DNA from: an uncultured bacterium
GTDB taxonomy: Bacteria > Bacteroidota > Bacteroidia > CAILMK01
Reading direction: 5' to 3'
NCBI GenBank assembly: GCA_903829945.1
Contig: CAIKRV010000044.1
Coordinates: 21,370-85,369, forward strand
DNA: 64,000 nt
The notes under the pieces were generated by a model, which was not told the origin of the DNA, searched no databases, and worked only from the letters and a program-made list of their open reading frames with translations. Within the stretch, counting starts at the first letter, position 1; the number at the start of each line of letters is the position of its first letter. The position numbers were made by a program, and so were the translations under genes. Below, piece after piece: positions 10,258 to 60,974 of the stretch.

Positions 10258-11484
10258 ATGTTGAAGTATTTTGTTAGTATTCTAGTGTTATCATTATTTG
10301 CAAATTCTGCATATGCGCAGTACATTCGTTACAATGAAACATTATTTGGCAATTATGTGCCTTCGCCTCCTTACAGAGTAGGTCATATATACGATGTGGA
10401 CAGTTTTGGCAATAGAATTAAACATGATGATTCTCTTGAGATTTTTGAATGGGATTCTAATGGCAGTAATATTCAATGGGAAAATGCTGCTGGATATAAT
10501 CCTAAAATTTATGATTATTCATACTTTCAAATAAGGTACGAAACGAATAACCTTATAGTATTATCTAAATTTATTAGGGTTGCAAAATATGTTGCTGGCC
10601 TTTTTAATCCTGCAAATTTGTGGGATAGTGTGCATATTTACTATACCTACGATTCAAGCACGGGTAATTATTTACTTAAAAATAAATACACTCAATTACT
10701 CAATAAAAAAGGAAAGGTTTTTAATTCTGAGAATATAAATTATTATTTTGATGGGAATGGAAGTGATACGCTTATTATTTATCAAAGGTGGGATGCTGTC
10801 AATAGCGCTTGGAAGGACTCTGCTAAATCCATCGCTAAATTTATACCATCTATGGGAATTCCGCAATGGTATTACCATTGGATTTATGCTAATAATAAGT
10901 GGATGCTCCATACCGTAGATAGCATGTTATATGATAGCGCCTCCAATCCTAAGGCTATATTCACCCAAGTAAATCATAATGGTAATTTAGTAGATTCGAG
11001 CAGAAGATTTATGCATAGACTAGATGCACATACACTTGAAAATGTACACTGGATTTGGATTGATTCAGCGTGGATCAAGGATACGATTGCGATTTTTTAT
11101 ACTAATTATAATGGTATTGCAACTAAATTATTCAAATTTTATGATCCTAAAACACAAATTGCAGTTAAAGCAATCAAGTGTAATTATGCTAATCCGGATC
11201 TTACAGGCCTAAAGCAAGATATAAATAATTCTGCAAACTTTCAAATTTATCCCAATCCTACTCTGGGAACTATGAATATAGACTATACCCTTGATGCTGC
11301 TCAAGAAGTATTAATTAATATTTATAATTTGATGGGAAAAGAAGTTCGGCATATAGAATACAGTATACAAGATGGCGGAAAGCATCATGCGCAAATTGAT
11401 TTGACCGAGTTACCGGAAGGAATATATTTTATAAAATTTCAATGCAAAGAAACACAGAATATTCAAACCTTAATTAAGCAATGA
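10258..11484 (+). CDS. T9SS-secreted surface protein of unknown function
   Basis: A 408-residue protein with a signal peptide (LSLFANSAYAQY) and a type A T9SS sorting domain over the last 80 residues: FQIYPNPTLG, then INIYNLMGKEV, ELPEGIYFIKF and a basic tail. The middle has many WDS, YD and W-rich short repeats and no domain I recognise. It should cross the outer membrane through the T9SS and be anchored or released after removal of the sorting domain. The next gene (lipoprotein) overlaps by 4 nt (ATGA), so the two form an operon. Confidence 0.82.
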   Translation: MLKYFVSILVLSLFANSAYAQYIRYNETLFGNYVPSPPYRVGHIYDVDSFGNRIKHDDSLEIFEWDSNGSNIQWENAAGYNPKIYDYSYFQIRYETNNLIVLSKFIRVAKYVAGLFNPANLWDSVHIYYTYDSSTGNYLLKNKYTQLLNKKGKVFNSENINYYFDGNGSDTLIIYQRWDAVNSAWKDSAKSIAKFIPSMGIPQWYYHWIYANNKWMLHTVDSMLYDSASNPKAIFTQVNHNGNLVDSSRRFMHRLDAHTLENVHWIWIDSAWIKDTIAIFYTNYNGIATKLFKFYDPKTQIAVKAIKCNYANPDLTGLKQDINNSANFQIYPNPTLGTMNIDYTLDAAQEVLINIYNLMGKEVRHIEYSIQDGGKHHAQIDLTELPEGIYFIKFQCKETQNIQTLIKQ

Positions 11485-15394: not shown

Positions 15395-15430
15395 AAAAAA
15401 CTCAACGTCCCCACTAGGGAGACGTTGAGT
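15395..15430 (-). terminator. Rho-independent terminator or attenuator upstream of greA
   Basis: Perfect 10-bp stem ACTCAACGTC / GACGTTGAGT with an 11-base CCCACTAGGGA-type loop; on the minus strand it ends in TTTTTT. It would end the TonB-receptor/PorV operon, but because a -7 box lies just upstream of it the greA transcript may also start before it. Confidence 0.75.
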
Positions 15431-15463: not shown

Positions 15464-16519
15464 TTATAGCGTCAGCTTTAATCCAAAACAATGCGTTCCT
15501 GTAAAGATTGTAGAACGGTATGAATAATCAATTCCGAAACGTTTTGCTTTATTTTTACCAAAAGGTAAATCTACACTGGCACCAGCCGATGGACCAAGAC
15601 CGGTTTTTGTACGCAAATCAGAACTAAATATATCCTGCTCGTAATTAAATCCGCCTCTTAGCATCAGGTATCCTTTATAACTGTATTGCAAGCCGATAAT
15701 TTCTTGGTCCTTATCAAATGCATTTGACATAAATGAACCCGCAATGGTTAATTTATGCGTAGAACCGGAATCAAAATATAAATCATAAGATACACCAATA
15801 TTTAACATGGAAGGCAATTCAAATTCATTACTTCTACTTTCTAAGGTCATAGAATAAGGAGAACCATCAATTACCCCACGCGTGGATAAGCCCCCACCGG
15901 AATAAGACATCGCAGGACCGATATTTCTAAGGGAAACACCAATTTTAATTTTATCTTTATCCCCGGCAAAATACTGAATACCGGCATCCATAGATACTCC
16001 TGTAGCGCTTACAGAAACTATTCCTTCGCTAACGGCACGGAACAATACCCCAGCACGTATAGCATTGGAAAATTTATGCGCATAGCCTACCCCAATATTT
16101 ACCATAGAAATATTATAGGTTCCTTGTACAGGTTCAGGACTATTAACGGTAGTAATTGGTATATCACCAAAATCCCAGGAGATAATGCTTACGCCAATGG
16201 CATCATCCTTATCTTCACCCAGGGTTTGTGCAAAACCAAAGGCATTAATATTAACACCAACCGTAGAATTACCCAACCAATTGGTACGTGCCGCCAGAAA
16301 TTCTGTTTGATGAATATCTGCTAAACCTGCCACATTGAATTGCATACACTCTACACCATTGATGCCGGCAATATCTACTCCACCCCATCCGGAGCTTCTG
16401 GCCCATGGATTAACTACTAGTTGTTCAGCACCGGCCTGACCTACACGATCAGGATTGCCCGCCATTACTGACTGTGAAAGTGCTAAACCTAATATTACGC
16501 CTACTATTTTTTTGATCAT
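15464..16519 (-). CDS. PorV/PorQ-family outer-membrane protein
   Basis: A 351-residue protein with a signal peptide (LGLALSQSVMAG) and a body typical of PorV/PorQ-like 14-stranded barrels of the FadL class: N-terminal RVGQAGAEQLVVNPWARSSG block, the internal strand pattern ISMVNIGVGYAHKFSNAIRAG, and a C-terminal aromatic end (FGLKLTL). PorV shuttles T9SS cargo to the attachment machinery. This one is the last gene of an operon with a giant secreted protein and a TonB receptor, so it may be a dedicated paralogue for that cargo rather than the housekeeping PorV. Confidence 0.82.
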   Translation of the reverse strand: MIKKIVGVILGLALSQSVMAGNPDRVGQAGAEQLVVNPWARSSGWGGVDIAGINGVECMQFNVAGLADIHQTEFLAARTNWLGNSTVGVNINAFGFAQTLGEDKDDAIGVSIISWDFGDIPITTVNSPEPVQGTYNISMVNIGVGYAHKFSNAIRAGVLFRAVSEGIVSVSATGVSMDAGIQYFAGDKDKIKIGVSLRNIGPAMSYSGGGLSTRGVIDGSPYSMTLESRSNEFELPSMLNIGVSYDLYFDSGSTHKLTIAGSFMSNAFDKDQEIIGLQYSYKGYLMLRGGFNYEQDIFSSDLRTKTGLGPSAGASVDLPFGKNKAKRFGIDYSYRSTIFTGTHCFGLKLTL

Positions 16520-16554
16520 CTTACTTGTTTTTCTAAGTTGATAATTAGTTTTTT

Positions 16555-19500
16555 TTAGAATGTGTCAAGGTCAATTGGTCTCATTACACCAAACCATTTG
16601 ATGACTCTTTCTCCCAAATTGCCTGCTTTAATATGAATTAAATATACCCCACTGGCAATTGGTACACCTGCATTATTTTTCAAATCCCAATCCAAGAATG
16701 TGGAATGAATCTCACTAATCGGTTGGTCAACATTATATCTGCGAACCAAAGCGCCATTGACTGTATAAATATCAATGGTGCATTTGCTTGGCAAGTTGGT
16801 AATTCGAACCCTATTGTCCAACTGTGATGTTTCATACCCTGAGTATGCATAGTATGGATTAGGAACAATATTCACTTCTTTCAATGCCTTTTGTCCAAGC
16901 GCTACCGTCTCGGTAGGGGTCAAAGAACTTGTATTAAAGCTATATAGAGGTAAATTATTATTTTGTGGTGTTCCGCTGGCATTCGGATAAGTGGCATAAG
17001 GAGTAGTTACTCTTAAGCGTAATCTTGCATCAGATGGTATTATACCATCTTGAACACTATTTAACTTACCTGCCGCAGTTAATGCCGGTGGCATTACCCA
17101 CATTACATCGCCGAATACATGAGCCAACATGGTATTACGTGCAAATGAATTATCAGTTAGCATCGCTAAATAAGTTTTACAACTATCATAGGCAATGCCT
17201 CTTTCCTTGGCAAAACGTGGATATTTATCACGGAAAGCTTTGGTCATGGCTACTTTAGACCATGGGTTTCTGGAACTCATTACATAAATCCAATGCTTAC
17301 CGGCCCAAGTATAACCATTGACATAATCAAAATAACCTGCCGCCGGATTCAAATAGCCATACTGCCAATTGTTATTGGTAGGATTCCAAAGCATATCATT
17401 ACCGTTATCCTTTTGATTGTGAGAATCCTCACCAAACATAATATTTAAACGTTCGCCGGTTTCAATATTTACCGCATAGCCTGGGAACCAACTGGTACCC
17501 ACTTCAGGGTTAGCCCCCGGATTATAAATTGGACCATTGGCACCATCCACAAACGGATTAGTATGCTTACGAACATCAAATTTCTTAGCACCACCCTCAT
17601 TCTTATTGGTAAGGTTCGGATCTGTGCTGGTTTCTCCTTCTTCAATAACCACACATTTGGTCCATTTGCTCTTATCGGCAGTAAATACCAAATCAATGCT
17701 ATTGGTGATATTGATTCGCTGATTTTCAAAATCTACTTGATCCGGAATTGGACCCAAAGTATATTCATAAACCCCTGAAGGATCTTTAAAGTACTCTGAA
17801 CGTGCCGCCAAGGCACCAGGCGCTACTACACCGGCCAAAGATGCTTCAAATGCTTGGCGTGGATCTACCCAGTTATCATAAGCATATTTATGAACAATGG
17901 ATTGAGTATAAGTTTGATTATAGGTAGAGTCAATAAATAAAGTATCACCTGCACTTACCAAAATGGTTTGTACACCAGAAACATTATTATAAACTGTATC
18001 CCATTTATTAGCAAAGAGTCTAACTAAAAACTTAGGGGTATGATTGGTATCTGTCACTAAATCTAAAGTTCTTCCGGTGGATTTTCCATAATACATGGTA
18101 AGTTCTCCGTTAGCGGTATGCAATACATAAACATTAGTTTTAGCAACGAAAGTAAATAAATTCTTAGTTACTGTTTTAGTCGAAGTTACTTTTTCAGTAT
18201 AGGCGCCGGCATCCTGTGGAGAAGAATGTGAATTGGTCGGATCCGGTGAAATTTCTACATCATCATATTTAGGATCCATAACGCCGCCCCCTTGAGCATC
18301 TTTATGGGTACCGGAACGAATCCAGTTATACGGATTGATTGGAGCTGCAGTTCCGGATTGTTCGCCATCGTAAATACCGGTCAACCAATAATTTGACGGA
18401 TCATTGAAAGTAATTGTTGCTGAAATAAAACCATTGGTCAATCGAGTTGAACTATCCAACACCGCACCCGGTGCTTCTGTATAAAATTTACTTGGATCCA
18501 CATAATATGGTTTCTTAGGATTAACATCAAACTTACCACTTAATGGCTGTGCAATAGAAACAACTAATCCTAATTTCGATACCACTTGGTCATGGAAAAT
18601 ACTGATGCTATCCTGAGAATAGGCAATAGTATCATTTTTTGTGGTATTGGCATTGTATTGTGTAATGACCCAACGGGTACGCGCCGGATTAGGCTCGTAA
18701 AAGTTTTTAGTAATATAAGGTGTATCATTGGTGGTAGTACCAATTGAATCATATATTCTCAATTGGAAATCTCCTCCTTTTACCAAAAGCGGATCATATA
18801 CGCGAATATTTACCGGACCGGCACCTATGGCATATAATGGCTGATCAATAGAGTTCTTATTTTTAGAGAATAATTCAGCTTCAGAACTTGGATCCAAATC
18901 CAAGAAATTACCGCCATTACCTACTCCTTCTATTCTTCTGATCGGAACTTGGGTACCAAAATCAGCATTCAGAGAATTACCTCCGAATAATGGATCGGAG
19001 CTATGCGGCATCGCAATAATGGAAGGAGAGCCGTTTACTTGTGCCGGACGTCCTGCCAAGAAATAAGTATTCTTATCGTTTGGATTGGCATTATAACCAT
19101 AGGCCATCACCATGTAATAGTAATAATTATTATTTATTAACTTATCATCACCGGTGGCAAAAAGGTCTTTCACTATTTCATAAGTATGAGTTACCCCTTG
19201 ATTGGATCTGGTAACCATAATTTTTGGTACCGTTGATTTCAAGGTTGGGTCAAATACATTATTGATAATATTAATAGGAACATTATTTCCTTTAATATCA
19301 GATTGCGCAATTAATCTTGCTTTACTGATATCTCCTAAGTCACCTGCAGAAACAGATGAATTTGCTAATTGATAAATTAAATAACCTTCAAACCTGAAAG
19401 TATCCTTTTTACCAAAGGTTAAAATATTCTTTTCTGTAGTATTGATAGAACCGTTTTGGTCTATAAATGAAAGGACTACTTTATTTTTAAGTTCAGTAAC

Positions 19501-21057
19501 TTGAACTACAGGAGGTTCAGGACCGATACGTAATTGGAAACAATCATCATATAATGTTTGCGCCAAATCATCCGCAAATAAAAGCTCTGTAATGGCATCC
19601 GTATTATCACTTTGACGAGTGGACATGGCCCAAACTGCACCTACAGTAACATAGTTAACAGCACCCGGTTTCAAGGTAAAAGGACCTGCAGATTGTAAGA
19701 ACCTTCTATCTCCTGGAGGGTTACCCGCATTTTTTTCTGTCCATTGATTTGGATCACTTACACGAGGGTCACCAGGGAACATGAAGTGTGCTTTAGGACC
19801 GGCGCCTGTTCCGTTTTTACCATCATTATGAATATAAGTGCCTTGTTTCCAACGAGCGGTCATAAAATAATAATAATTATTGGCCTGTTCCGGGTTACCA
19901 TTTACAGGATTAAAGTCATTATTATAATATACAAATGCTGACATTGGCAAGTAATCATCATTGACGTCAAGAATGCCATCATGATTTCTATCAATTCTAG
20001 GGGTGCCTGCATCTACATGAGGACCTAAGAAGAAGTCGGTACCAACAGCAGGTAAAGTTGTTCCATATCCTAATGCACCCGGATCTATATTTTCACCATT
20101 ATAGCAAATACCTAAACTTCTATTGGTATCTACGGCTACATAGTCATCAAATGCATAACCAAGGTCCGGATCCACCCATTGACCGAAGAAGGTACTATCT
20201 AAAGTATAGGTACCGCGGTTTATAATTTTATAGGCATAAAAAGTTGCACTATTTAATTGGTCATTCGTCACAAATGCAAATGCATGCACTTGAACTTCTA
20301 AACCAATTGCTAAGGCATGGGTTTCATTGTGCGTATTACCATTATCGTTATATACCCACCATAAATTTTGGTCAGGCGTAAATTCGCATTGAGGTTTGGA
20401 AGGAGTATGTGCATAAAAGACTGGATAATCACTATTTTTAGGATCAAACTGATTTAATAAATAGTGCCCATCTCCATCTACGTCTTTAAAAGGAGCCAAT
20501 TTAGAAAACTTCCATCCACCGGTATTGCTTTGTGGAAAAGCAGGCCAATTAATCATATCAGCCGTAGCAGGAGCCGAACCATTTTTAAAATTGGTAATAT
20601 CGTCCTTATTGATTTTCCAAATTTTGTCATATTGAAGACAAGCAGCAGCATCGGTACCGGCATTGACGGTATCCAACGGACCAGGGAAAAAGTCACTACC
20701 ATTTTGACGATAAGTCATGGCTGCCTCTTTTAGGTTGCCATGGTCATAACCACCAATCCATAAAGAACCGGCAAATAATGAAGTTCTTCTTGGTTGACCC
20801 TCCTGAGTAACTTTAGGAACTTCGTACTTAGCCAGACCTACAAGGTCCCACCACATGTCCCCACCATTTAGAATGTGCGCTCTGACATTATTGATGTCAA
20901 GGTCAGCAGAGCCGGTGGCCGGGGAACAGCCATCCGCTAAACGTTTGTGCTTGCCCGGAGGATTGATCGGCTGTCCTACATTTGGAGCAGCATAAACCAA
21001 TGTGCCAATGCACATAAAGCCTACCAGAGAAAGAAGTGAAAGTTTAATTTTATTCAT
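16555..21057 (-). CDS. 1500-residue secreted protein with a variant C-terminal sorting-like domain
   Basis: Start moved from TTG 21063 to the ATG 6 nt downstream (MNKIKLSLLSLVGF), which gives a clean signal peptide ending LVYAAP. The mature protein is rich in Asn, Asp, Gly, Tyr and Trp with beta-sandwich character and has no catalytic motif I recognise. The last 90 residues begin VNIVPNPYYAYSGYE and contain IDIYTVNGALVRRYN and GVYLIHIKAG, resembling a FlgD-like/T9SS sorting domain but extended by FGVMRPIDLDTF. It lies between a TonB receptor (32-nt gap) and a PorV/PorQ protein (35-nt gap), so it is probably a T9SS-exported surface protein. Function unknown. Confidence 0.8.
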   Translation of the reverse strand: MNKIKLSLLSLVGFMCIGTLVYAAPNVGQPINPPGKHKRLADGCSPATGSADLDINNVRAHILNGGDMWWDLVGLAKYEVPKVTQEGQPRRTSLFAGSLWIGGYDHGNLKEAAMTYRQNGSDFFPGPLDTVNAGTDAAACLQYDKIWKINKDDITNFKNGSAPATADMINWPAFPQSNTGGWKFSKLAPFKDVDGDGHYLLNQFDPKNSDYPVFYAHTPSKPQCEFTPDQNLWWVYNDNGNTHNETHALAIGLEVQVHAFAFVTNDQLNSATFYAYKIINRGTYTLDSTFFGQWVDPDLGYAFDDYVAVDTNRSLGICYNGENIDPGALGYGTTLPAVGTDFFLGPHVDAGTPRIDRNHDGILDVNDDYLPMSAFVYYNNDFNPVNGNPEQANNYYYFMTARWKQGTYIHNDGKNGTGAGPKAHFMFPGDPRVSDPNQWTEKNAGNPPGDRRFLQSAGPFTLKPGAVNYVTVGAVWAMSTRQSDNTDAITELLFADDLAQTLYDDCFQLRIGPEPPVVQVTELKNKVVLSFIDQNGSINTTEKNILTFGKKDTFRFEGYLIYQLANSSVSAGDLGDISKARLIAQSDIKGNNVPINIINNVFDPTLKSTVPKIMVTRSNQGVTHTYEIVKDLFATGDDKLINNNYYYYMVMAYGYNANPNDKNTYFLAGRPAQVNGSPSIIAMPHSSDPLFGGNSLNADFGTQVPIRRIEGVGNGGNFLDLDPSSEAELFSKNKNSIDQPLYAIGAGPVNIRVYDPLLVKGGDFQLRIYDSIGTTTNDTPYITKNFYEPNPARTRWVITQYNANTTKNDTIAYSQDSISIFHDQVVSKLGLVVSIAQPLSGKFDVNPKKPYYVDPSKFYTEAPGAVLDSSTRLTNGFISATITFNDPSNYWLTGIYDGEQSGTAAPINPYNWIRSGTHKDAQGGGVMDPKYDDVEISPDPTNSHSSPQDAGAYTEKVTSTKTVTKNLFTFVAKTNVYVLHTANGELTMYYGKSTGRTLDLVTDTNHTPKFLVRLFANKWDTVYNNVSGVQTILVSAGDTLFIDSTYNQTYTQSIVHKYAYDNWVDPRQAFEASLAGVVAPGALAARSEYFKDPSGVYEYTLGPIPDQVDFENQRINITNSIDLVFTADKSKWTKCVVIEEGETSTDPNLTNKNEGGAKKFDVRKHTNPFVDGANGPIYNPGANPEVGTSWFPGYAVNIETGERLNIMFGEDSHNQKDNGNDMLWNPTNNNWQYGYLNPAAGYFDYVNGYTWAGKHWIYVMSSRNPWSKVAMTKAFRDKYPRFAKERGIAYDSCKTYLAMLTDNSFARNTMLAHVFGDVMWVMPPALTAAGKLNSVQDGIIPSDARLRLRVTTPYATYPNASGTPQNNNLPLYSFNTSSLTPTETVALGQKALKEVNIVPNPYYAYSGYETSQLDNRVRITNLPSKCTIDIYTVNGALVRRYNVDQPISEIHSTFLDWDLKNNAGVPIASGVYLIHIKAGNLGERVIKWFGVMRPIDLDTF

Positions 21058-21089
21058 AACCAAATCAGTTCTAAATTTTCAATACTTAA

Positions 21090-24000
21090 TTAAAATGCAT
21101 AACTTAATCCAAGACGAATAACACGCGGTGAACCATAGTTGCCCGGGCTCAATAAACGTGCATTGTATTGATCAACAAATGCTTGACGTGCTGCTAAATC
21201 AGCAATATTACTTAATGTTTTTTGACCTTCCGCAGATGCCAAATATCCATCATCATCCGGGCGACCTGTATAACGATATACGCCAAAGATGTTCTGTATG
21301 TTAAACAAATTTTGAATGGTAACACGCAAGTTGATGTAATGGTCGCTACCTTTTGAGCCGCTATTTTCTTGGTTTTTCTTTGATTTTACCAATATGTTTT
21401 TATCATAGGATAAATCCACGCGATAATTCCAAGGTAAACGGGCATCATTCGGTTGACCTAATAATGTAGTACGTTGAGCTACGCCAATTTCAACATCAGT
21501 TGTAACGTTGGATTGACGAGAATAAGGCATACCGGAACTTGCAGTAAATAAAGCAAAGAAACCGGCATTTTCAAATACTGCACGATATACTTTATCTACC
21601 ACAGTATTTATACCATTGCTTTTATCAGTAGATGGACCGGTATAATCCAAACCATCGCCAAAACGATAATCAACGGTAGCATTCAATTTATGACGAACAT
21701 CGTAATCCAATGGTAGTGGAGTACGTAAGTTAGGTTGACCGGCAGCAATTAAACCGCCTTGAGAACCTGAGGATGAACCGGTACCATTTGCAAATTGCAA
21801 TCCATAATTGGCTTTAAAGGCAATACCGGAAGCCGCAGCACGACGATATTCATAAATAACGTTTAGTCCTTTTACGGTACCAAAGTCAATATTATCATAA
21901 GTAGTATAAGTACTTACTGGGTAAGCGAAATTAATTTTTCTTATTTGAATCATATTACGCAATTCACCATAGTTAGCTTCCAAGGTGATAACACTAACTT
22001 TTCCGATAATTTGCTTGAAACCTACTTGATAATTAATACGCGTTTGTGGTTTCAAATTTGGATTATCTATAACACCGGTAGCTCTTTCTTTTAAGAAATA
22101 ATAATTATCAATGGAGAAAAAGTTATTACTGGTAGGACGTTGGCTTAAGATATCATAATTCGCATAGAAGTTAGCCACGTCTGATATTGGGAAAGAGAAA
22201 GACACACGAGGTGAATAACTAGTTTGAGGAGTATATTGTTGGAAAGAAGCAGCAATCGGCTTATTTAAATTATCTCTGGAAATACCTGCACCTTTAATAT
22301 AAGGAGTCAAGGTACCGCCATTTAAATTCGCCAAATAGGTTACGTCCGTTACTTCTTTACCGGTTGCATCATACCATTTATTGGTAGCAGGGTCACGATA
22401 TCCTATTGGTGCAACTGTTGGATTTAAAGGATCATTTACGTAAGGCACATAACTTGAACCGATATTTCCGGGTTTGGTATATTTGGTAGTTCCAAAATAT
22501 TTACCGTCAATATCTCCCGCAGTATAGGTAGGAAGCATGGAATATTGGTCAATTAATACCGGCTGATTTGCATCATAACGATCAATACGTAAACCTAAAC
22601 GGAAATTAATGCCGTAAAAATCAAACTGGTCTTGAACATATCCTGCAATATAAATAGGCTGGAAAGCAGCAATGTATCTGTGCAAACTATCATTCAAGAA
22701 ATCATTAACTGTCAATTTCTTAGAAGGTGAATTGCCTAAATAATCATAACCATAGTAACTCACTAAAGAGCTACCTTGGTTGAGCAATTCATCGGCGGAG
22801 AACATATTTAATTTTCCGGCCAAGCGACCGTGAGACGCTAAGTATTTAGATAAATTATTATAATCACCGGGATTGTAGCCATCTGTATTAATAAATGACT
22901 CACTGGAAATTGGTTTTCCATGAATATCAGTAGCCCCTTGGCTGATTAAATATTCTCTGAAGTTTTTATCAAAAGTTCTTTGGTTGGCAGATTGGAAACG
23001 GTAATTAATAGTATCCAAGAAGTTACCATATTTATCAAATACTGAATCCTTTCTTGTAGTATCAACAGATAGATGTGAGTTAGCTAACTGACGTGCTAAA
23101 GTCCATAAACCGGTAGTAGCTACAGTATAACCACTTGAAACACGTTGTTCATAATTGAAACCAAATTTGATAGCATGTTGCTTCAACTGGAAGGAACCGG
23201 AGAAATATAAATTAAATTGGTCCGTTTGAGATTTAGAAACTGAACCATATACGGTACCTACACCACTCCACAAAGAGTTAACATTAGTAGGCGATTGTCC
23301 GTTAACTAAGCCACCTTCATTTTGGATTTGTTGTAAGTTATATACTTTTGATTTATTAGCAAAATACTCACGGGTATAATTTTGTTCTGTGGTTAAAACA
23401 TTACCAGGTTTAAATTTCACAGAGTCAATTAAATAATTACCTTCACTATATACATGGGTGGTCGGATCCACAGTATAAGATCTACGGGTATATTGATCAA
23501 AAGTACCGATATAACCATATTTAAAGTAATCATCTTTCAGGTTCTTATCCCAAGTAGTATTTCGAACCGTTTGATAATCCCCTTGAATGGAATAAGAAGC
23601 GCCCTGGATAATAGATTTAGGATCAGTGGCAATATTTTGTTTAAAACGTATAAATCCTCTATAAGTCTCATTAATAACTTGAGGATTATTAGCGGTATTA
23701 AACATGCTGAAAGAAGGAATATAAGCCAAATATGAATTATAGTTTCCTGAAGCATAGGCAGTAATAGTGATATTATTCACCGGTTGGTATTCCAACTTTC
23801 CTGTAAAGGAATAGCTTTGAGAAGGAATATTAGGGTGATAAGCCACCGTAGTAATACCGGAATTGCCTACATAAGAAGCGGCCGGTAAGAATATATCTGT
23901 ATTAATGGTATTAATATCTGTTTTTGGAGCTCTAATTAATGGATTTGCATTTAAAGCATTCATTACATTAGAATTGGCAGTATAAATCGGAATTCCGGAT

Positions 24001-24872
24001 GGACTTGGGTCTTTAATTAAAGTAGCAGAACCGGAAATAAAGAAGTCAATTAAAGGGCGGGATGGAATGGAATCTCCATGTGCTTTGGTTTTCCAAATTG
24101 GACCGCTTAAATATCCGTCAAAATAATTATACCCATAAGCATCAAGCAATTGTGATGACAAAGCGCTAATACCTCCTGAAAATACACCTGTAGGACCACG
24201 ACTGGTTACGGTTACAATACCGCCTGTAGCATCACCATATTCTGCACCGATACCTGAGGTTAGAATGGTAGATTGTTCCAAGGCCGTTTGAGGAATAGAC
24301 ATGGACCCCAAAACTTTAATACCATCTAAGTAATAAACAGTTCCATCACCTCTACCCCCTGCAAGATTTAAACCTTGGCTACTGCTGATGACACCGGGTT
24401 GTACTACTAATAAGTAACCTGAACCTTGACCGGCAGCATGTTGGAAATCCTCACGGGTAATAACACTTACCCCGGGGTTTTTCTTATTAATTAATGGATC
24501 TTTAAAAACTACTACTTCAACATTTTTAAGTGTTTTACCCTTCACAGACATTTTGATATAAAGGTCCTGGGTTTTATCAGCGTATAAGTTTACACGAACA
24601 ATTTTAAATTTTTCGTAACCAATCTTAATCGCGATAACGCTATCCACAAGACCCGGTTGTAAACCGGTAATATTATACTTTCCTTCATCATCGGACATTT
24701 TAGCCGCCCTGAGAATACCGGAGGAATAAACCCTAATAATGGCACCATCAATAGGTTCCTTGGTCGTTTCATCTGTAACATTTCCACTTAATCCAGCGTC
24801 CTGTGTTTGTGAAAAAGCTACTAAAGATAGGGAGCTAAAGAGAAAAGATAGTAAAAAATGCCTGAGCCTCAT
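21090..24872 (-). CDS. TonB-dependent outer-membrane receptor with N-terminal carboxypeptidase-regulatory-like domain
   Basis: A 1260-residue protein: signal peptide (LSFLFSSLSLVAFSQ), a CarboxypepD_reg-like beta-sandwich (GLSGNVTDETTKEPIDGA), a plug domain (VEVVVFKDPLIN, VSVITREDFQ, YYLDGIKVLG, GAEYGDATGGIV) and a large barrel ending VIRLGLSYAF with terminal Phe. Start moved from 24953 to ATG 24872 because the promoter -7 box overlaps the track's GTG and the extension is charged and unlike a signal peptide. It is the first gene of a three-gene operon. The substrate is unknown; there is no SusD partner, so glycan import of the SusCD type is not supported. Confidence 0.93.
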   Translation of the reverse strand: MRLRHFLLSFLFSSLSLVAFSQTQDAGLSGNVTDETTKEPIDGAIIRVYSSGILRAAKMSDDEGKYNITGLQPGLVDSVIAIKIGYEKFKIVRVNLYADKTQDLYIKMSVKGKTLKNVEVVVFKDPLINKKNPGVSVITREDFQHAAGQGSGYLLVVQPGVISSSQGLNLAGGRGDGTVYYLDGIKVLGSMSIPQTALEQSTILTSGIGAEYGDATGGIVTVTSRGPTGVFSGGISALSSQLLDAYGYNYFDGYLSGPIWKTKAHGDSIPSRPLIDFFISGSATLIKDPSPSGIPIYTANSNVMNALNANPLIRAPKTDINTINTDIFLPAASYVGNSGITTVAYHPNIPSQSYSFTGKLEYQPVNNITITAYASGNYNSYLAYIPSFSMFNTANNPQVINETYRGFIRFKQNIATDPKSIIQGASYSIQGDYQTVRNTTWDKNLKDDYFKYGYIGTFDQYTRRSYTVDPTTHVYSEGNYLIDSVKFKPGNVLTTEQNYTREYFANKSKVYNLQQIQNEGGLVNGQSPTNVNSLWSGVGTVYGSVSKSQTDQFNLYFSGSFQLKQHAIKFGFNYEQRVSSGYTVATTGLWTLARQLANSHLSVDTTRKDSVFDKYGNFLDTINYRFQSANQRTFDKNFREYLISQGATDIHGKPISSESFINTDGYNPGDYNNLSKYLASHGRLAGKLNMFSADELLNQGSSLVSYYGYDYLGNSPSKKLTVNDFLNDSLHRYIAAFQPIYIAGYVQDQFDFYGINFRLGLRIDRYDANQPVLIDQYSMLPTYTAGDIDGKYFGTTKYTKPGNIGSSYVPYVNDPLNPTVAPIGYRDPATNKWYDATGKEVTDVTYLANLNGGTLTPYIKGAGISRDNLNKPIAASFQQYTPQTSYSPRVSFSFPISDVANFYANYDILSQRPTSNNFFSIDNYYFLKERATGVIDNPNLKPQTRINYQVGFKQIIGKVSVITLEANYGELRNMIQIRKINFAYPVSTYTTYDNIDFGTVKGLNVIYEYRRAAASGIAFKANYGLQFANGTGSSSGSQGGLIAAGQPNLRTPLPLDYDVRHKLNATVDYRFGDGLDYTGPSTDKSNGINTVVDKVYRAVFENAGFFALFTASSGMPYSRQSNVTTDVEIGVAQRTTLLGQPNDARLPWNYRVDLSYDKNILVKSKKNQENSGSKGSDHYINLRVTIQNLFNIQNIFGVYRYTGRPDDDGYLASAEGQKTLSNIADLAARQAFVDQYNARLLSPGNYGSPRVIRLGLSYAF

Positions 24873-24952: not shown

Positions 24953-24983
24953 CAAATTTAATTAGTCAGGTCAGTCCTTCAAA
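24953..24983 (-). promoter_or_regulatory. consensus promoter of the TonB-receptor operon (TTTG-N19-TAAATTTG)
   Basis: Minus strand: TTTG (24983-24980), 19-base spacer, TAAATTTG (24960-24953). Exact fit to the Bacteroidota consensus; leader of about 75 nt before ATG 24872. Confidence 0.72.
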
Positions 24984-25486
24984 AAACATATTTGGTCATT
25001 TATCAGGCAATTTTCAACCTTAGAGAAGTTTTATCTTTCTCAAATTATTGATTTACAAACCTTTAATTAATGAATTACCTATGTCCTTATCGCTCCTTAG
25101 CCCAAAAACTTGTGTTTTTACGCCCTCTTCACAATGCAGGAAAATGGCTTCAAAGCTATTAATCATTATTGACTTGACAAAAAAATTTTATCAACGTCTT
25201 TGAAACTAGGCTTCTAAGCATAAAATCGAATTTGGCCTTTTTTATGCTGTTAATAATTGATTCACTTATAGATAACGATTATTTAATATACTTTTTATTG
25301 AATACTAAACCTTGAAAATTGGGCCAAATAAAAAATTCTTCCATAAAAAGTATGCCCCCACTTTACATCACTACAATTAATTTAATGCCTTAAATATCAA
25401 TATATAAAGAAGTTACAATGCCCTTAATCCAATAATATTCCGATAAATGCTAAAAATTGTATTTTCCCAATGATTCAAATTTTTTC
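24984..25486. other. AT-rich intergenic stretch between divergent genes
   Basis: About 500 bases separating the TonB-receptor operon from the M43 protease gene. I see no ORF, repeat or RNA gene that I can support. Confidence 0.5.
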
Positions 25487-25552: not shown

Positions 25553-26830
25553 ATGAAAAAATTTACATTCATGAATAAATACGTTTGGCTTATTATACTA
25601 GGCCTTGCAAGTGCTTCCCTAGCAAAAGCACAATTTACTGTTTGCGGTACCGATCATTATTGGGACCAACAAGTAGCAAAAAATCCTCAATTGGAACAAG
25701 AGCGCATTAAAGCTGATGCGGGTGCGCGTGCGGCTATCTATAGTGCGGCTTACAAAACCATGCCTACTACTTCAGAACTTTTAATCCCTATTGTATTTCA
25801 CGTTATTTCCAATAGAAATTATCCGGTTCAAACGACCTTACAAGATTGTAAAGATCAAATTCAACGTTTAAACGAAGATTATAGCGAAAGAAATTCCGAT
25901 ACCGTAAATGTCCGTCCTTTGTTTCAAGGCAGAATTGGCAATGCTCATATCCGATTTATCTTAGCTACGAAAGATCCGAACGGTAACCCAACTACAGGGA
26001 TGACCAGAGATACTTCTATATTAACCTACAATGCGGGGGATACCGTTAAATCCGTAGTGGATTGGGACCATAATTTTTACCTAAATGTATGGGTCGTTTA
26101 TAATATCGACTCTCGTTCCTTGCCAAAAGGCAGTACTATTGCAGGCTATTCCGTATTTCCATGGGATGGCGTAGCCAGAGGCAAAGCTGATGGTATCGTG
26201 ATGGACCATACTTGGATAGGCTATGGAACTGATCGTACCCTTACCCATGAAATTGGTCACTTCCTTGGTTTATACCATACTTTCCAAGGTGGTTGCACCG
26301 GTGGTGATGAAATTGAAGATACTCCTCCTGTTACTGCTGCAAGCTTAGGCAAATGCGGTACCTGGCCACAAGATAGCTCTTCCAATACTTGTCATAATGA
26401 TGTTCCGGATCTTCCTGATATGTTGGAAAACATTATGGATTATTCCAGCTGTAAAGTAATGTTTACTAAGCAACAAGTTCAAAGAATGCGTTATTACCTT
26501 ACTTTGAACCGCGTATCATTATATTACTATAATACGGTAGCCGGCATAGAAACCCCTACTGAAAATTCAAGTGCTGCGCTAAGCCTTTTCCCTAATCCTA
26601 CCAATGAAAGCTTTACTTTAGATGCAGCAGGATTAGCTATTGGCAAATCTGTTCATATTCAATGTTTTGATATGATGGGCCGTATGCAATTCGAAGAACT
26701 TGTTCCGGTAGGAAACGATGGCATCATCAGCAAACAAATGAATGTGGCCAGCTTAAAATCAGGCGTCTACAAAGTGGTGCTTTATCAAGACAACGAAATG
26801 AAAGCGGTTAAAGCTTTAATCAAACAATAA
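25553..26830 (+). CDS. secreted M43-family (cytophagalysin/pappalysin) metalloprotease with T9SS sorting domain
   Basis: A 425-residue protein with a signal peptide (LGLASASLAKAQ) and a metzincin-type catalytic domain: HEIGHFLGLYH at residues 232-242 (three zinc-ligand histidines and catalytic Glu) and the Met-turn NIMDYSSC downstream, preceded by the M43 feature GIVMDHTW. The C-terminal 80 residues are a T9SS type A domain (LSLFPNPTNESF, CFDMMGRMQ, SLKSGVYKVVLY, basic end). It should be exported through the T9SS. The N-terminal residues 25-75 may serve as a propeptide. Monocistronic with its own strong terminator. Confidence 0.93.
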   Translation: MKKFTFMNKYVWLIILGLASASLAKAQFTVCGTDHYWDQQVAKNPQLEQERIKADAGARAAIYSAAYKTMPTTSELLIPIVFHVISNRNYPVQTTLQDCKDQIQRLNEDYSERNSDTVNVRPLFQGRIGNAHIRFILATKDPNGNPTTGMTRDTSILTYNAGDTVKSVVDWDHNFYLNVWVVYNIDSRSLPKGSTIAGYSVFPWDGVARGKADGIVMDHTWIGYGTDRTLTHEIGHFLGLYHTFQGGCTGGDEIEDTPPVTAASLGKCGTWPQDSSSNTCHNDVPDLPDMLENIMDYSSCKVMFTKQQVQRMRYYLTLNRVSLYYYNTVAGIETPTENSSAALSLFPNPTNESFTLDAAGLAIGKSVHIQCFDMMGRMQFEELVPVGNDGIISKQMNVASLKSGVYKVVLYQDNEMKAVKALIKQ

Positions 26831-27286: not shown

Positions 27287-28273
27287 TTACTTGGATTGTC
27301 CATGAATATCCACCCAGGATTTGAACTTATCAAAGACCGTAAAAAATATCTTTTCACGGGCTTCCTTGGTCCATCCTGCTATATGCGGGGTAATTAATAC
27401 CTTACCGGTATCTAATAACTCAGTAATGAGGGCCTTTTCTTCCACGCTATAAGTGCTAAGTTTTTCATTTTCAAGAACATCTAGTGCAGCACCCAAAATT
27501 TTACCACTTTTTACTCCCTTTAATAAGGCGGCAGTATTAACAATTTTGCCGCGGGACGTATTTAATAAGTAAAAAGGCTTCTTGCATTTATTTATAAATG
27601 AATCATTTATAAAATAATTCGTTTCCTCATTCAGGGGCAGGTGAACCGTTATAATATCTGCACGTCGCTGAATCTCCTCCATGCTTGATTCACGAACAAA
27701 GCTGGTACTAAAGCCGCTTTTGTACTTATCATATGCATACATATCTGCCTCAAAGCCTTGCATTTTAAGAGCAAAGGCCTGTCCGGTATTCCCATATCCA
27801 ATAATTCCGATGACCTTACCTTTAATTTCGGTTCCTTTGTTTTCTTCGCGCACCCATTGAAAATTACGGACTTGCTCCCAAGCACGAGGAATGAAGTTTA
27901 ACATATTAATTAACAGACCAATAGCATGTTCAGCCACAGCATCCTTATTGGCTTCCGGTGAATTGAGTACTAGGATATCCTTGGATTCTGCATAAGCTAC
28001 ATTTACATTATCCAATCCTGAACCCGGACGCAGAATGTATTTCAGACGGTCCGCCTTATCAATTAATTCCCGGGTCATAAAAATATTACTATTAATAACA
28101 ATACCATGGAATTGCTCAATAATTTCCAACAGGGATTCATTACTGATTTCAGGATAGTACACCACTTCAAAGTTCATGAGTTCGAAGGCCTCTAAAAACT
28201 TCTCCGGCACATTATCCGTCACCAGGAATTTATCCTTTCCGGGTTGCATGCTATGTTCAAATGCTTTTGCCAT
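27287..28273 (-). CDS. NAD-dependent D-2-hydroxyacid dehydrogenase (phosphoglycerate dehydrogenase-like)
   Basis: A 328-residue enzyme of the D-isomer-specific 2-hydroxyacid dehydrogenase family. Rossmann motif GIIGYGNTGQAF is near residue 160. Catalytic-region signatures are LLNTSRGKIVNTAALLKG, LDVLENE and TPHIAGWT (the catalytic His). There is no C-terminal ACT domain, so serine-feedback control as in long SerA forms is not expected. 3-Phosphoglycerate is the likeliest substrate but not proven. It lies 35 nt downstream of rsmA on the same strand. Confidence 0.85.
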   Translation of the reverse strand: MAKAFEHSMQPGKDKFLVTDNVPEKFLEAFELMNFEVVYYPEISNESLLEIIEQFHGIVINSNIFMTRELIDKADRLKYILRPGSGLDNVNVAYAESKDILVLNSPEANKDAVAEHAIGLLINMLNFIPRAWEQVRNFQWVREENKGTEIKGKVIGIIGYGNTGQAFALKMQGFEADMYAYDKYKSGFSTSFVRESSMEEIQRRADIITVHLPLNEETNYFINDSFINKCKKPFYLLNTSRGKIVNTAALLKGVKSGKILGAALDVLENEKLSTYSVEEKALITELLDTGKVLITPHIAGWTKEAREKIFFTVFDKFKSWVDIHGQSK

Positions 28274-31499: not shown

Positions 31500-32846
31500 A
31501 TGAAAAAATTATTAATATTAATAATTTTAATTTGCATTTTTAATGAGGTGAATGCCCAATGGAAAGGTATTGCCAGAAATGATTCAATAGAATGGTACAG
31601 TGATGTTCAATTTTTGAACAAGGATACAGGGTATCTAATTTCACCAATTGGTTATTTACCAACCAATAGTGCGCATTCTAGGTTATATCGTACAAAGGAT
31701 GGTGGAAATAACTGGGAATTCATAGATTCATTTTATGACGAAACATATTTTCATTTCTTTGATTATAATAATGTGATTATTCAAGGCCGATACAATTTCA
31801 ATGTTGGCACTCCAAAAGTATATGGACGTTGGGGTATGTGGCACTCTAAAGATGCAGGAAGAACATTAGACAGCATCCCAGGAACTATGTTTCTTGGCCC
31901 ACCACAGTTTATATCTCCCAATATTGGATTTGCCAACAATGGCGGATATACCACGTTTCCTTTGAAAATTTCCTCAAGTAGTAATTTGTACAAAACAAAA
32001 GACGGCGGATTTCATTGGTATAAAGTTTATGACGGAGCAATTCAAGCACGAACTATGCACTTCCCGAGCGATACTTTAACCGGATATATTCAGTATTTCA
32101 ATAATGATAATTTTGATAGCATCATTGTAATTAAAACAACTGATGGAGGAGAACATTGGAATAAAATTTATACAAGAGCTTACAATTGGTATCCATCAGG
32201 TACAGATGTTTCCGAGAAATTCATTTTTATTACTAAGGACATAATACTTCATTCCTGGGATTCTGCTTCATTTATGAGTCACGATGGAGGAAAATCTTGG
32301 AAACCAACATATTTCCCTCGTCCTTATGGTCTAAACAATTTTGTATTTACAGATACTTCAACTGTTTATGGAAGTACAAATGGGTATTTAGCGAAAGATT
32401 CAACAGGAACGGGATTTTATTGGGGCTTGAGTGCATTTTCAGATTCCATCATTACACCTGAAATACAATTTGTAGGGAAAAACTTTGCGTACGCCTTCAC
32501 ACCTGATAAAAATGCAAGTTTAATTTATACCCTTCAAAATCCACAAAAATGGAATGGTGTAATCACTGCCGTTAAAGAATCTATATTCCACAATGAGGCA
32601 TTAGAACTATTTCCTAATCCTGCACAAAATAGTATTACTTTCAAAGGTTATGGATTTAAACCCGGAAAGGTCATGCTGTACGGTCATGATATGCTGGGTA
32701 GAACGGTATTAAATTCCGTCATGCAAGCTGCCACTGATGGCACGATACAAAGCGAAATGAATATATCCAATTGGCATCAAGGTATTTATCAAATTGAAGT
32801 ATGGCAAGGAAATTTGAAACAGGAAATAAAGTTAATAAAAAGATAG
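31500..32846 (+). CDS. T9SS-secreted BNR/Ycf48-like beta-propeller protein
   Basis: A 448-residue protein with a signal peptide (ILICIFNEVNAQ) and at least four BNR/Asp-box repeats: KDGGNNWEF, KDGGFHWYK, TDGGEHWNK and HDGGKSWKP, which mark blades of a beta-propeller like those of Ycf48/sialidase-fold proteins. The C-terminal T9SS domain (LELFPNPAQNSITF, HDMLGRTV, NWHQGIYQIEVW, basic end) sends it to the surface. No catalytic residues of a sialidase were recognised, so binding rather than enzymatic function is more likely. Confidence 0.85.
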   Translation: MKKLLILIILICIFNEVNAQWKGIARNDSIEWYSDVQFLNKDTGYLISPIGYLPTNSAHSRLYRTKDGGNNWEFIDSFYDETYFHFFDYNNVIIQGRYNFNVGTPKVYGRWGMWHSKDAGRTLDSIPGTMFLGPPQFISPNIGFANNGGYTTFPLKISSSSNLYKTKDGGFHWYKVYDGAIQARTMHFPSDTLTGYIQYFNNDNFDSIIVIKTTDGGEHWNKIYTRAYNWYPSGTDVSEKFIFITKDIILHSWDSASFMSHDGGKSWKPTYFPRPYGLNNFVFTDTSTVYGSTNGYLAKDSTGTGFYWGLSAFSDSIITPEIQFVGKNFAYAFTPDKNASLIYTLQNPQKWNGVITAVKESIFHNEALELFPNPAQNSITFKGYGFKPGKVMLYGHDMLGRTVLNSVMQAATDGTIQSEMNISNWHQGIYQIEVWQGNLKQEIKLIKR

Positions 32847-58580: not shown

Positions 58581-60974
58581 TTAGTTCTTTATAATTTTCA
58601 TCATGGATGGCATTTGACCTTCGGCAGATACGCCGATAAAATAAACACCGGCTGCTAAAGAGCTAATCGACTCTAATTTAAAGGCATTTAATCCACTACT
58701 GAAGGAGCCGTTTTTAAGGGTCATTAATTTTTGACCGCTTAAATTATAAATCGCTACTTCCAAGATGGCAGGTTTATCCAATGTCAAGCTAAAGTTCAAT
58801 ACATTAGCAAAAGGATTAGGATAGGCCTCCAACATATATTTGTTTTGATACATTCCGGCAATTCCGGTCAGTGAAGCCACATGAATAGCAGATTTAAAAG
58901 TATCACTACATTGCGTAATATTATTGATGGTATTAAGCTCCACTACATATAGACCGGTATCCTTAAAGGTATGGGTAACGGTTCTGGTAGATTTAAAATT
59001 AGTATTACCGTCACCCCAATTCCAGGTGTAAAAATTACCGCCTGAACTGCTTGGTGTAGTATTTTGCACAGTAGCGGTTGGGCCATTAACACCGGTGAGT
59101 GTAAATGCAGAACCGGGCAAAGCATATACCGTAAGCGGCATAGTAGTAGAGTCTGTTCCGGTACTGCTTTTAGCCAATAATTTAATGGTATAATTTCCTG
59201 CCTTTTTGAAGGTATGGGTAGGAGAAAAATTAGTATCAATAGCCGTACTATCTCCAAAGTTCCAAGCATAGGAAGTGGTATATACAGAGGTATTCGTTAA
59301 GGTAAGAGAAGTATTGGAGCATATTGCGGAATACATAGCACTAAAGGAAGCACTAGGATAAGGACCAAAATTAAAACTGATCGTACTATCGGTATTTTGA
59401 GTGATTTTCTGAATGCTCACCCCGGATTTTTTGCCGGACCAAGTTAAGGCATTGGGAGTGGTTTTATCATTGAACGTGGTATTGGAAGTATTCCCGGGGA
59501 ATAAATCACCGCCGTCCCCACGATTACCGCCACTGCTGGCAGCTTTGTCTAAATCATAACGACCATCTGCTTGCTCCAGATAAACCCCTACATCCGTCAA
59601 GTCGGATTCTACAGCGTTATAGTAGTACCAAACCATATTGGTAATGTCCATAATTTTGCTATCAATATGCCATATAGCTAAACCATGACAAGGAAGGGAG
59701 GAATCAAAACCATTGGCGTATCTATTTTCCAATAAATAATACTCATTGGCTACAGAGGTTTTAATTTTATAAATGTTTTTATGATTGGCGGAAGGCGCTA
59801 TAGTATAAGCCCCAGCAGTATTGATCGTAACAGGAGTTACCCACTTAAACCAAGATTTACTCCACGCACTGAAAGAGGAAGGTGTAGCGGTATTATTTAA
59901 CCAAGAACCACCGCCCATTACATCATAATCACCTACGCCGGCAGAGGCATAATCACCATTAACGTAATTGGTATTATATAAATCAGGCATCCCCATTAAA
60001 TGACCAAATTCATGACATAATACACCAATACCGATTAAGGAACTATACAGCAATTCCGGTTGTATGGTATAGTGACTAATGGTAACATTATTGTAATATC
60101 TGGATAAGCCTACATTGGCCAAATCATAATAATGAGACCAGATATATTTACCATTTAAATTTTGTTCGGCACCGGGACCGGCATGCATAACCACTACGCC
60201 ATCCACATTGCCATCTCCGTCATTATCATATTTTGAAAAATCGACGCCGGCGGCATGTGCAGCATCTACGGCCTCCGCCACTAATTTAGTAGCTGCCGTA
60301 TTGCCATTGGCATAGCCATAAGTTGCAATGCTATCCTTGGAGGTGTACCAGCCAAATACATCTACCTTTAGGTTCAAAGTGCCAAATGAATTTTTATTCA
60401 TGTAATCAACAAAAGAACCTGTGCCATTGTAATTCTTTTGGGAAAGCATATTTATAAAACTACCCTTGGAATAAGTGGAATCATAGTCCTTAAACTTGAT
60501 TAAAATGACCAATACACGTTTGGTACCTGAACTAGGGAAACGCTTAGCAATATCATAGGTAGGACCGCTGCTTGTACCGGGCTTATTCGGCATTTGTTTA
60601 TTCATGCTATTAGCGGATTGAATCTTAGAATCACCATAGGTAAGGTGCTTAGTAATTCCGCTAAGGAAACTTAGTTCTTTAATATTTCTAGTGGCATCAT
60701 TATGCGCCAATACCCCTGAAGGGATTAAATTATCGCCCTGCTGAACGGCATATTCAATACCGCCTTTTGCATTGTAAAGCAAGGTATATCCATCTTCGCT
60801 CAGCATATAGTGGAGGTTCATATTTCCGACCAAATGTACATTGAGGTTGGTACCATCTTCCTGAGCAAAAATGAGCGGATTAGGATTCGCCATACAATTG
60901 GACATTCCAATTTGTGCATGGCTATTGAAGCTTAGGCAAAGTGCAAAAGCAATTAGGCAGATAAATTGTTTCAT
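58581..60974 (-). CDS. secreted M6-family metalloprotease with PKD domains and T9SS sorting domain
   Basis: A 797-residue protein: signal peptide (LCLSFNSHAQ), an N-terminal prodomain (about 25-125, SEDGYTLLYNAKGGIEYAV), then the catalytic domain with HEFGHLMGMPD at 321-331 (zinc ligands His, His, Asp or Glu and the M6 signature GMPD). Two PKD-type beta-sandwich domains follow (YAWNFGDSTAID, TWNWGDGNTNFKS), then a T9SS type A domain (LEAYPNPFANVLNF, IYNLSGQKLMTL, AAGVYFIGVSAEG, ending MMKIIKN). M6 enzymes include immune inhibitor A. It starts 4 nt inside the stop of the prodomain-like gene (ATGA), so translation is coupled. Confidence 0.95.
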   Translation of the reverse strand: MKQFICLIAFALCLSFNSHAQIGMSNCMANPNPLIFAQEDGTNLNVHLVGNMNLHYMLSEDGYTLLYNAKGGIEYAVQQGDNLIPSGVLAHNDATRNIKELSFLSGITKHLTYGDSKIQSANSMNKQMPNKPGTSSGPTYDIAKRFPSSGTKRVLVILIKFKDYDSTYSKGSFINMLSQKNYNGTGSFVDYMNKNSFGTLNLKVDVFGWYTSKDSIATYGYANGNTAATKLVAEAVDAAHAAGVDFSKYDNDGDGNVDGVVVMHAGPGAEQNLNGKYIWSHYYDLANVGLSRYYNNVTISHYTIQPELLYSSLIGIGVLCHEFGHLMGMPDLYNTNYVNGDYASAGVGDYDVMGGGSWLNNTATPSSFSAWSKSWFKWVTPVTINTAGAYTIAPSANHKNIYKIKTSVANEYYLLENRYANGFDSSLPCHGLAIWHIDSKIMDITNMVWYYYNAVESDLTDVGVYLEQADGRYDLDKAASSGGNRGDGGDLFPGNTSNTTFNDKTTPNALTWSGKKSGVSIQKITQNTDSTISFNFGPYPSASFSAMYSAICSNTSLTLTNTSVYTTSYAWNFGDSTAIDTNFSPTHTFKKAGNYTIKLLAKSSTGTDSTTMPLTVYALPGSAFTLTGVNGPTATVQNTTPSSSGGNFYTWNWGDGNTNFKSTRTVTHTFKDTGLYVVELNTINNITQCSDTFKSAIHVASLTGIAGMYQNKYMLEAYPNPFANVLNFSLTLDKPAILEVAIYNLSGQKLMTLKNGSFSSGLNAFKLESISSLAAGVYFIGVSAEGQMPSMMKIIKN

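Follow-up and report, generated by a model that had tools for sequence, protein, structure and literature searches.

Gene content of the locus

The window, by which we mean the whole 64,000-nucleotide stretch of Bacteroidota DNA that was analysed, carries on its reverse strand a unit of three genes encoding a TonB-dependent receptor, a giant surface protein and a PorV-like barrel, which we call PorX4. An earlier sequence-only reading had proposed this unit as a distinct subsystem of the type IX secretion system (T9SS), and all three genes are present as described.

24872-15464, reverse strand: three-gene unit (triad) of TonB receptor, giant and PorX4, tightly spaced
24953-25180, reverse strand: candidate promoter region from a pattern scan, TTG-N-TAnnTTTG at 25180-25151 and 24982-24953
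21090-24872, reverse strand: TonB-dependent receptor, 1260 amino acids from ATG 24872
16555-21057, reverse strand: giant T9SS-type cargo, 1500 amino acids from ATG 21057, with TTG 21063 as an alternative start
16558-16872, reverse strand: CTDx, the giant's variant T9SS C-terminal domain (CTD), spanning roughly residues 1398-1502; PNPYY motif and invariant Lys1489
16558-16596, reverse strand: conserved post-CTD tail of the giant, WFGVMRPIDLDTF, kept across operon giants
15464-16519, reverse strand: PorX4, PorV-family barrel of 351 amino acids, fourth clade, proposed dedicated shuttle or anchor
15400-15430, reverse strand: intrinsic-terminator-like hairpin, 13 pairs and a T run

The intergenic gaps are 26 nt (receptor to the giant's TTG) and 35 nt (giant to PorX4), and the receptor reading frame stays open upstream of ATG 24872 as far as GTG 24953. 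The genes had been placed behind a single consensus promoter. A match to the Bacteroidota-type pattern TTG-N17-23-TAnnTTTG does precede the receptor, but there are two perfect matches rather than one, and as consensus matches only they are putative; the 10.5 kb of that strand scanned contain one other match. The terminator proposed after the third gene is borne out by a 13-bp stem followed by TTTTT at 15430-15400, ahead of greA.

The receptor has a signal peptide ending ...VAFSQ, a CarboxypepD_reg domain, a plug and a barrel; domain searches recover CarboxypepD_reg and, weakly, Plug. The NCBIfam models gave no match at all in the receptor, the SusC signature included, and the large open reading frames tested nearby showed no SusD-like domain. 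The description of a TonB receptor without SusD is therefore upheld, and the triad lies outside SusCD as defined by a SusC model and an adjacent SusD.

The giant is mostly beta and combines the features of a T9SS cargo: a signal peptide, a CTD with a PNP motif, a near-terminal lysine, and a genome that encodes SprA (G000:C90). In the alignment of giants, P1401, N1402, P1403 and K1489 are invariant. The extension previously noted past the usual domain, ...IKWFGVMRPIDLDTF, is real, and an equivalent tail of about 10 residues is conserved, with F or Y as the last residue in 149 of 162 operon giants. AlphaFold2 modelled the giant body (residues 40-930) at a pLDDT of 73.5. Its Foldseek matches, to GH94/GH116-type beta-sandwich domains, are partial and of low TM score, too weak to name a ligand from the fold. 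Elsewhere in the window, T9SS cargo with type A CTDs is encoded at 10258-11484 (forward; unknown function), 25553-26830 (forward; M43 protease), 31500-32846 (forward; YCF48-like) and 58581-60974 (reverse; M6/PKD protease).

PorX4 is a fourth clade of the PorV family

PorX4 passes the PorV family model NF033709 (121.6 bits, cut-off 90), which all 30 relatives also match, and falls far below the cut-offs of the PorV, PorQ and PorV2 equivalogs (53.7, 49.3 and 30.5 bits versus 250, 220 and 325). Four genes of the PorV family are present in the window's genome (G000; 2.9 Mb, 97 contigs, 99.99% complete): a true PorV behind porU, PorQ, PorV2 and PorX4. A housekeeping PorV thus exists apart from the window gene, and the worry that the latter might be the only PorV in the genome can be set aside. 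In a tree of a cleaned set of 102 PorV-family proteins, PorV, PorQ, PorV2 and PorX4 each occupy one side of a branch (support for PorX4, 100/99). This separation from housekeeping PorV favours a distinct pair of cargo and shuttle.

The giant carries a distinct type of CTD

A CTDx model was trained with one half of the operon giants, and 79 others were held out. All 79 were recognized as CTDx (95-173 bits), and none scored above 21.5 bits on the type A model. Where no PorX4 adjoins, the giants divided into 16 with CTDx (99-168 bits) versus 17 with type A CTDs (45-86 bits; at most 11.5 bits on CTDx), with no intermediates. Judged by alignment and these class models, CTDx is a CTD class separate from type A, in line with the variant sorting-like end recognized earlier, and this too favours a distinct cargo-shuttle pair.

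Median CTDx scores were 34.6 on a PorZ CTD model, 27.1 on PorU and 15.7 on type A, and 26 of 29 giants matched the NCBIfam PorZ model, in the C-terminal part of the model. By score, then, CTDx lies nearer to the CTDs of PorZ and PorU, which are not cleaved, than to the cleaved type A CTDs. At the type A thresholds (TIGR04183, 23 bits; PF18962, 27 bits), the window giant falls short, with 15.6 bits on TIGR04183 and no match to PF18962. Of the giants of 29 relatives, 17 reach E<=0.01 on TIGR04183, and at least one exceeds the 23-bit threshold. CTDx keeps the Ig-like fold common to CTDs, and some of its members pass TIGR04183; ordinary PorV could therefore act as the carrier. Nor are these type B cargos: none of 29 giants matched TIGR04131, and only 4 of 30 PorX4 proteins matched TIGR03519, weakly. 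Among the non-giant genes of the surveyed loci, no other cargo body bears CTDx.

Several loci depart from this arrangement. In the window's genome, a second protein (G000:C50, 370-2844, reverse strand; 824 amino acids) resembles the giant in its N-terminal domain (36% identity) but ends in a canonical type A CTD in place of CTDx. Five loci (L095, L103, L105, L110 and L114) hold arrays of 2-4 proteins that combine the giant body with type A CTDs, and PorX4 does not adjoin them. In three named relatives (L226, L244 and L256) the locus has a CTDx giant with no PorX4 directly downstream.

The triad recurs across the phylum

A single-protein search with the giant across a phylum sample of 396 genomes found matches in 97, of which 96 among the matches listed were compared. 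The PorX4 profile gave 135 matches of at least 308 bits in 108 genomes, clearly separated from the next group at 261 bits. Among the matches listed, PorX4 is present in 95 of the 96 giant-bearing genomes (Fisher p ~7e-76); in the sole exception (G254) the TonB receptor and giant lie at the edge of a contig. Of the 396 genomes, 304 encode SprA; within these the co-occurrence holds (Fisher p 4e-63), and none of the SprA-less genomes examined has PorX4. There were 35 PorX4 matches without a listed giant alongside, and nearly all those fetched proved to lie beside a giant that had diverged or at the end of a contig. An apparent set of 13 genomes with PorX4 but no giant mostly dissolved in the same way, with diverged giants or contig edges at the fetched non-adjacent loci. 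Two genomes (L195 and L215) do have PorX4 without an adjoining giant, in a cluster with two open reading frames of about 200 amino acids, an 855-amino-acid TonB receptor and a protein of about 764 amino acids, next to tandem type A cargo.

The first 80 regions fetched contain 49 copies with exactly this order and strand of TonB receptor, giant and PorX4. Among 80 named relatives found with the giant alignment, which are mostly metagenome-assembled genomes (MAGs) of uncultured Bacteroidota (the nearest is the freshwater MAG Umea_bin-10179), 72 have the exact order. The three genes therefore do co-occur elsewhere, as the proposal of a subsystem demands. The flanks vary by lineage: greA and a HIT gene lie downstream in about 80 loci, and GWxTD genes in 28 others. 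Because the flanking genes differ between lineages, we regard the triad as the conserved unit. Upstream, a 2-hydroxyacid/phosphoglycerate dehydrogenase-type gene is found in distant lineages (L074, 14648-15601; L098, 14136-15734; window, 27287-28273, the window copy identified by eye), hinting at an ancestral gene order.

CTDx and PorX4 distances are correlated (r 0.87), and genomes with two triads keep matched cassettes. Both agree with the mechanism proposed below, but shared vertical inheritance would by itself produce part of this pattern and most of the tree correlation.

A model of CTDx with PorX4

The giant and PorX4 of the window are in different reading frames, so we modelled the locus of a relative, L255, in which the two are in frame across one TAA. 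AlphaFold2 of this natural CTDx-PorX4 read-through gave a pLDDT of 84.7 and a pTM of 0.83, the latter above the ~0.7 that we estimate ourselves for an unplaced CTDx (judged without PAE), which suggests that CTDx docks on PorX4. The top Foldseek match of the model is CTD-bound PorV (8gl6_F). The giant's tail (window 16558-16596, reverse strand; ending LDxF) is without confident placement in the model.

Alternative explanations

The giant might instead be type A cargo of the usual kind, which housekeeping PorV carries and PorU attaches; PorX4 would then be a co-expressed paralogue in another role. CTDx does have CTD hallmarks, namely the PNP motif, the invariant near-terminal lysine and weak TIGR04183 matches, and PorV accepts a wide range of CTDs with little regard to their sequence (PMC10994853). 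On the other hand, the clean split between CTDx and type A follows adjacency to PorX4, giant and PorX4 are found together in all but one of the giant-bearing genomes among the matches listed, and in the surveyed loci CTDx is confined to the giant body. We consider this explanation unlikely.

There are two further possibilities. The giant and PorX4 could build a surface layer with a structural or adhesive role, with the receptor adjoining only through shared regulation: the body is large and beta-rich, PorP/SprF barrels likewise hold type B adhesins (PMC9143113), and extra giants were found without TonB. Yet the TonB gene lies directly upstream in 72 of the 80 named loci despite the turnover of the outer flanks, which makes a mere surface layer quite improbable. 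Alternatively, PorX4, whose fold is that of the FadL superfamily and whose gene shares an operon with the TonB receptor, could be a FadL-type channel for uptake of a hydrophobic substrate with that receptor, the giant being an independently exported surface binding protein. We find this very improbable: the best PDB match of the PorX4 profile is PorV from the SprA complex (6h3i, E 4.5e-23), far ahead of TodX/FadL (8e-5), the PorV family model is matched by 30 of 30 members, and the tie to PorX4 is through the CTD class of the cargo.

Proposed mechanism

We think it somewhat probable, with real reserve, that PorX4 collects CTDx from SprA and keeps it uncleaved, and that the giant is the outer subunit of a TonB transporter. 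Sec would carry all three proteins, each with a signal peptide seen in the sequence, over the inner membrane. The receptor and PorX4, both members of barrel families, would insert into the outer membrane, and the giant would enter the SprA translocon via CTDx. There PorX4 is predicted to act as a shuttle, replacing PorV at the lateral gate of SprA, binding CTDx and collecting the giant. PorU would leave CTDx in place, so that after export the retained, barrel-bound domain would anchor the giant, by similarity to PorU on PorV and PorZ on PorQ. The giant body may then sit over the receptor as a ligand-binding or lid subunit in the place of SusD, a step suggested by conservation of the operon only; such a giant-receptor complex would serve substrate uptake. 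Against the model stand the CTDx giants with no PorX4 directly downstream (L226, L244 and L256), the two genomes with PorX4 but no adjoining giant (L195 and L215), and the tail without a confident place in the structural model.

For the sequence-only reading, co-occurrence, the separate clade and the CTD class favour a cargo-shuttle pair, and the 'distinct T9SS subsystem' is supported to that extent, with the shuttle role a predicted one. The word 'export' is not apt for the receptor, which is more likely an uptake module served by the exported giant than a part of the export process; the label 'export operon' fits only the giant and PorX4.

Relation to known systems

PorV is regarded as the general shuttle of type A cargo. 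SusCD, in which SusD is a lipoprotein, is the most familiar case of a TonB receptor that works with a surface partner. As in SusCD, the CarboxypepD_reg TonB receptor of the triad shares an operon with a large surface protein; unlike SusCD, the triad is without SusC and SusD signatures, and its surface partner has a T9SS-type CTD and no lipoprotein anchor.

The CTD of PorU remains on PorV and that of PorZ on PorQ; in each pair one PorV-family barrel holds one T9SS-exported protein by an uncleaved CTD (PMC10202324). These are the CTDs to which CTDx scores closest. The triad differs from both pairs in its separate clade, its other cargo body, the TonB receptor in the operon and the aromatic-ended tail, and its CTDx retention is putative. 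Within the T9SS, cognate pairing has been tested best for type B CTDs and PorP/SprF, and in SprB-SprF and PG1035-PorP, as in the triad, the cargo gene is followed directly by that of its own FadL-type shuttle or anchor (PMC12618676, PMC9143113). The triad shuttle is of the PorV family, however, the CTD is not type B and the additional partner is a TonB receptor instead of PorE. PorV2 (NF052325) resembles PorX4 in being a PorV paralogue with no assigned role that occurs in the same genomes, but forms a separate clade and lies outside the triad. The triad would act like a blend of type B pairs and SusCD while belonging, by the signatures searched, to neither. A literature search, with preprints and most subscription papers outside its scope, returned no description of the TonB-giant-PorX4 cassette.

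More tentatively, we suggest that CTDx and PorX4 may constitute a third PorV-type class of CTD and shuttle, for one cargo family, in which the T9SS supplies a barrel-anchored TonB subunit; the arrangement would be ancestral to the phylum and would join export and import in one complex. Natural CTD swaps, and a PorV paralogue that goes with a single cargo family, open a direct way to test what determines shuttle specificity and the retention of a CTD. If the proposal is true, a TonB transporter would have an outer subunit that reaches the surface through a secretion system and not as an anchored lipoprotein.
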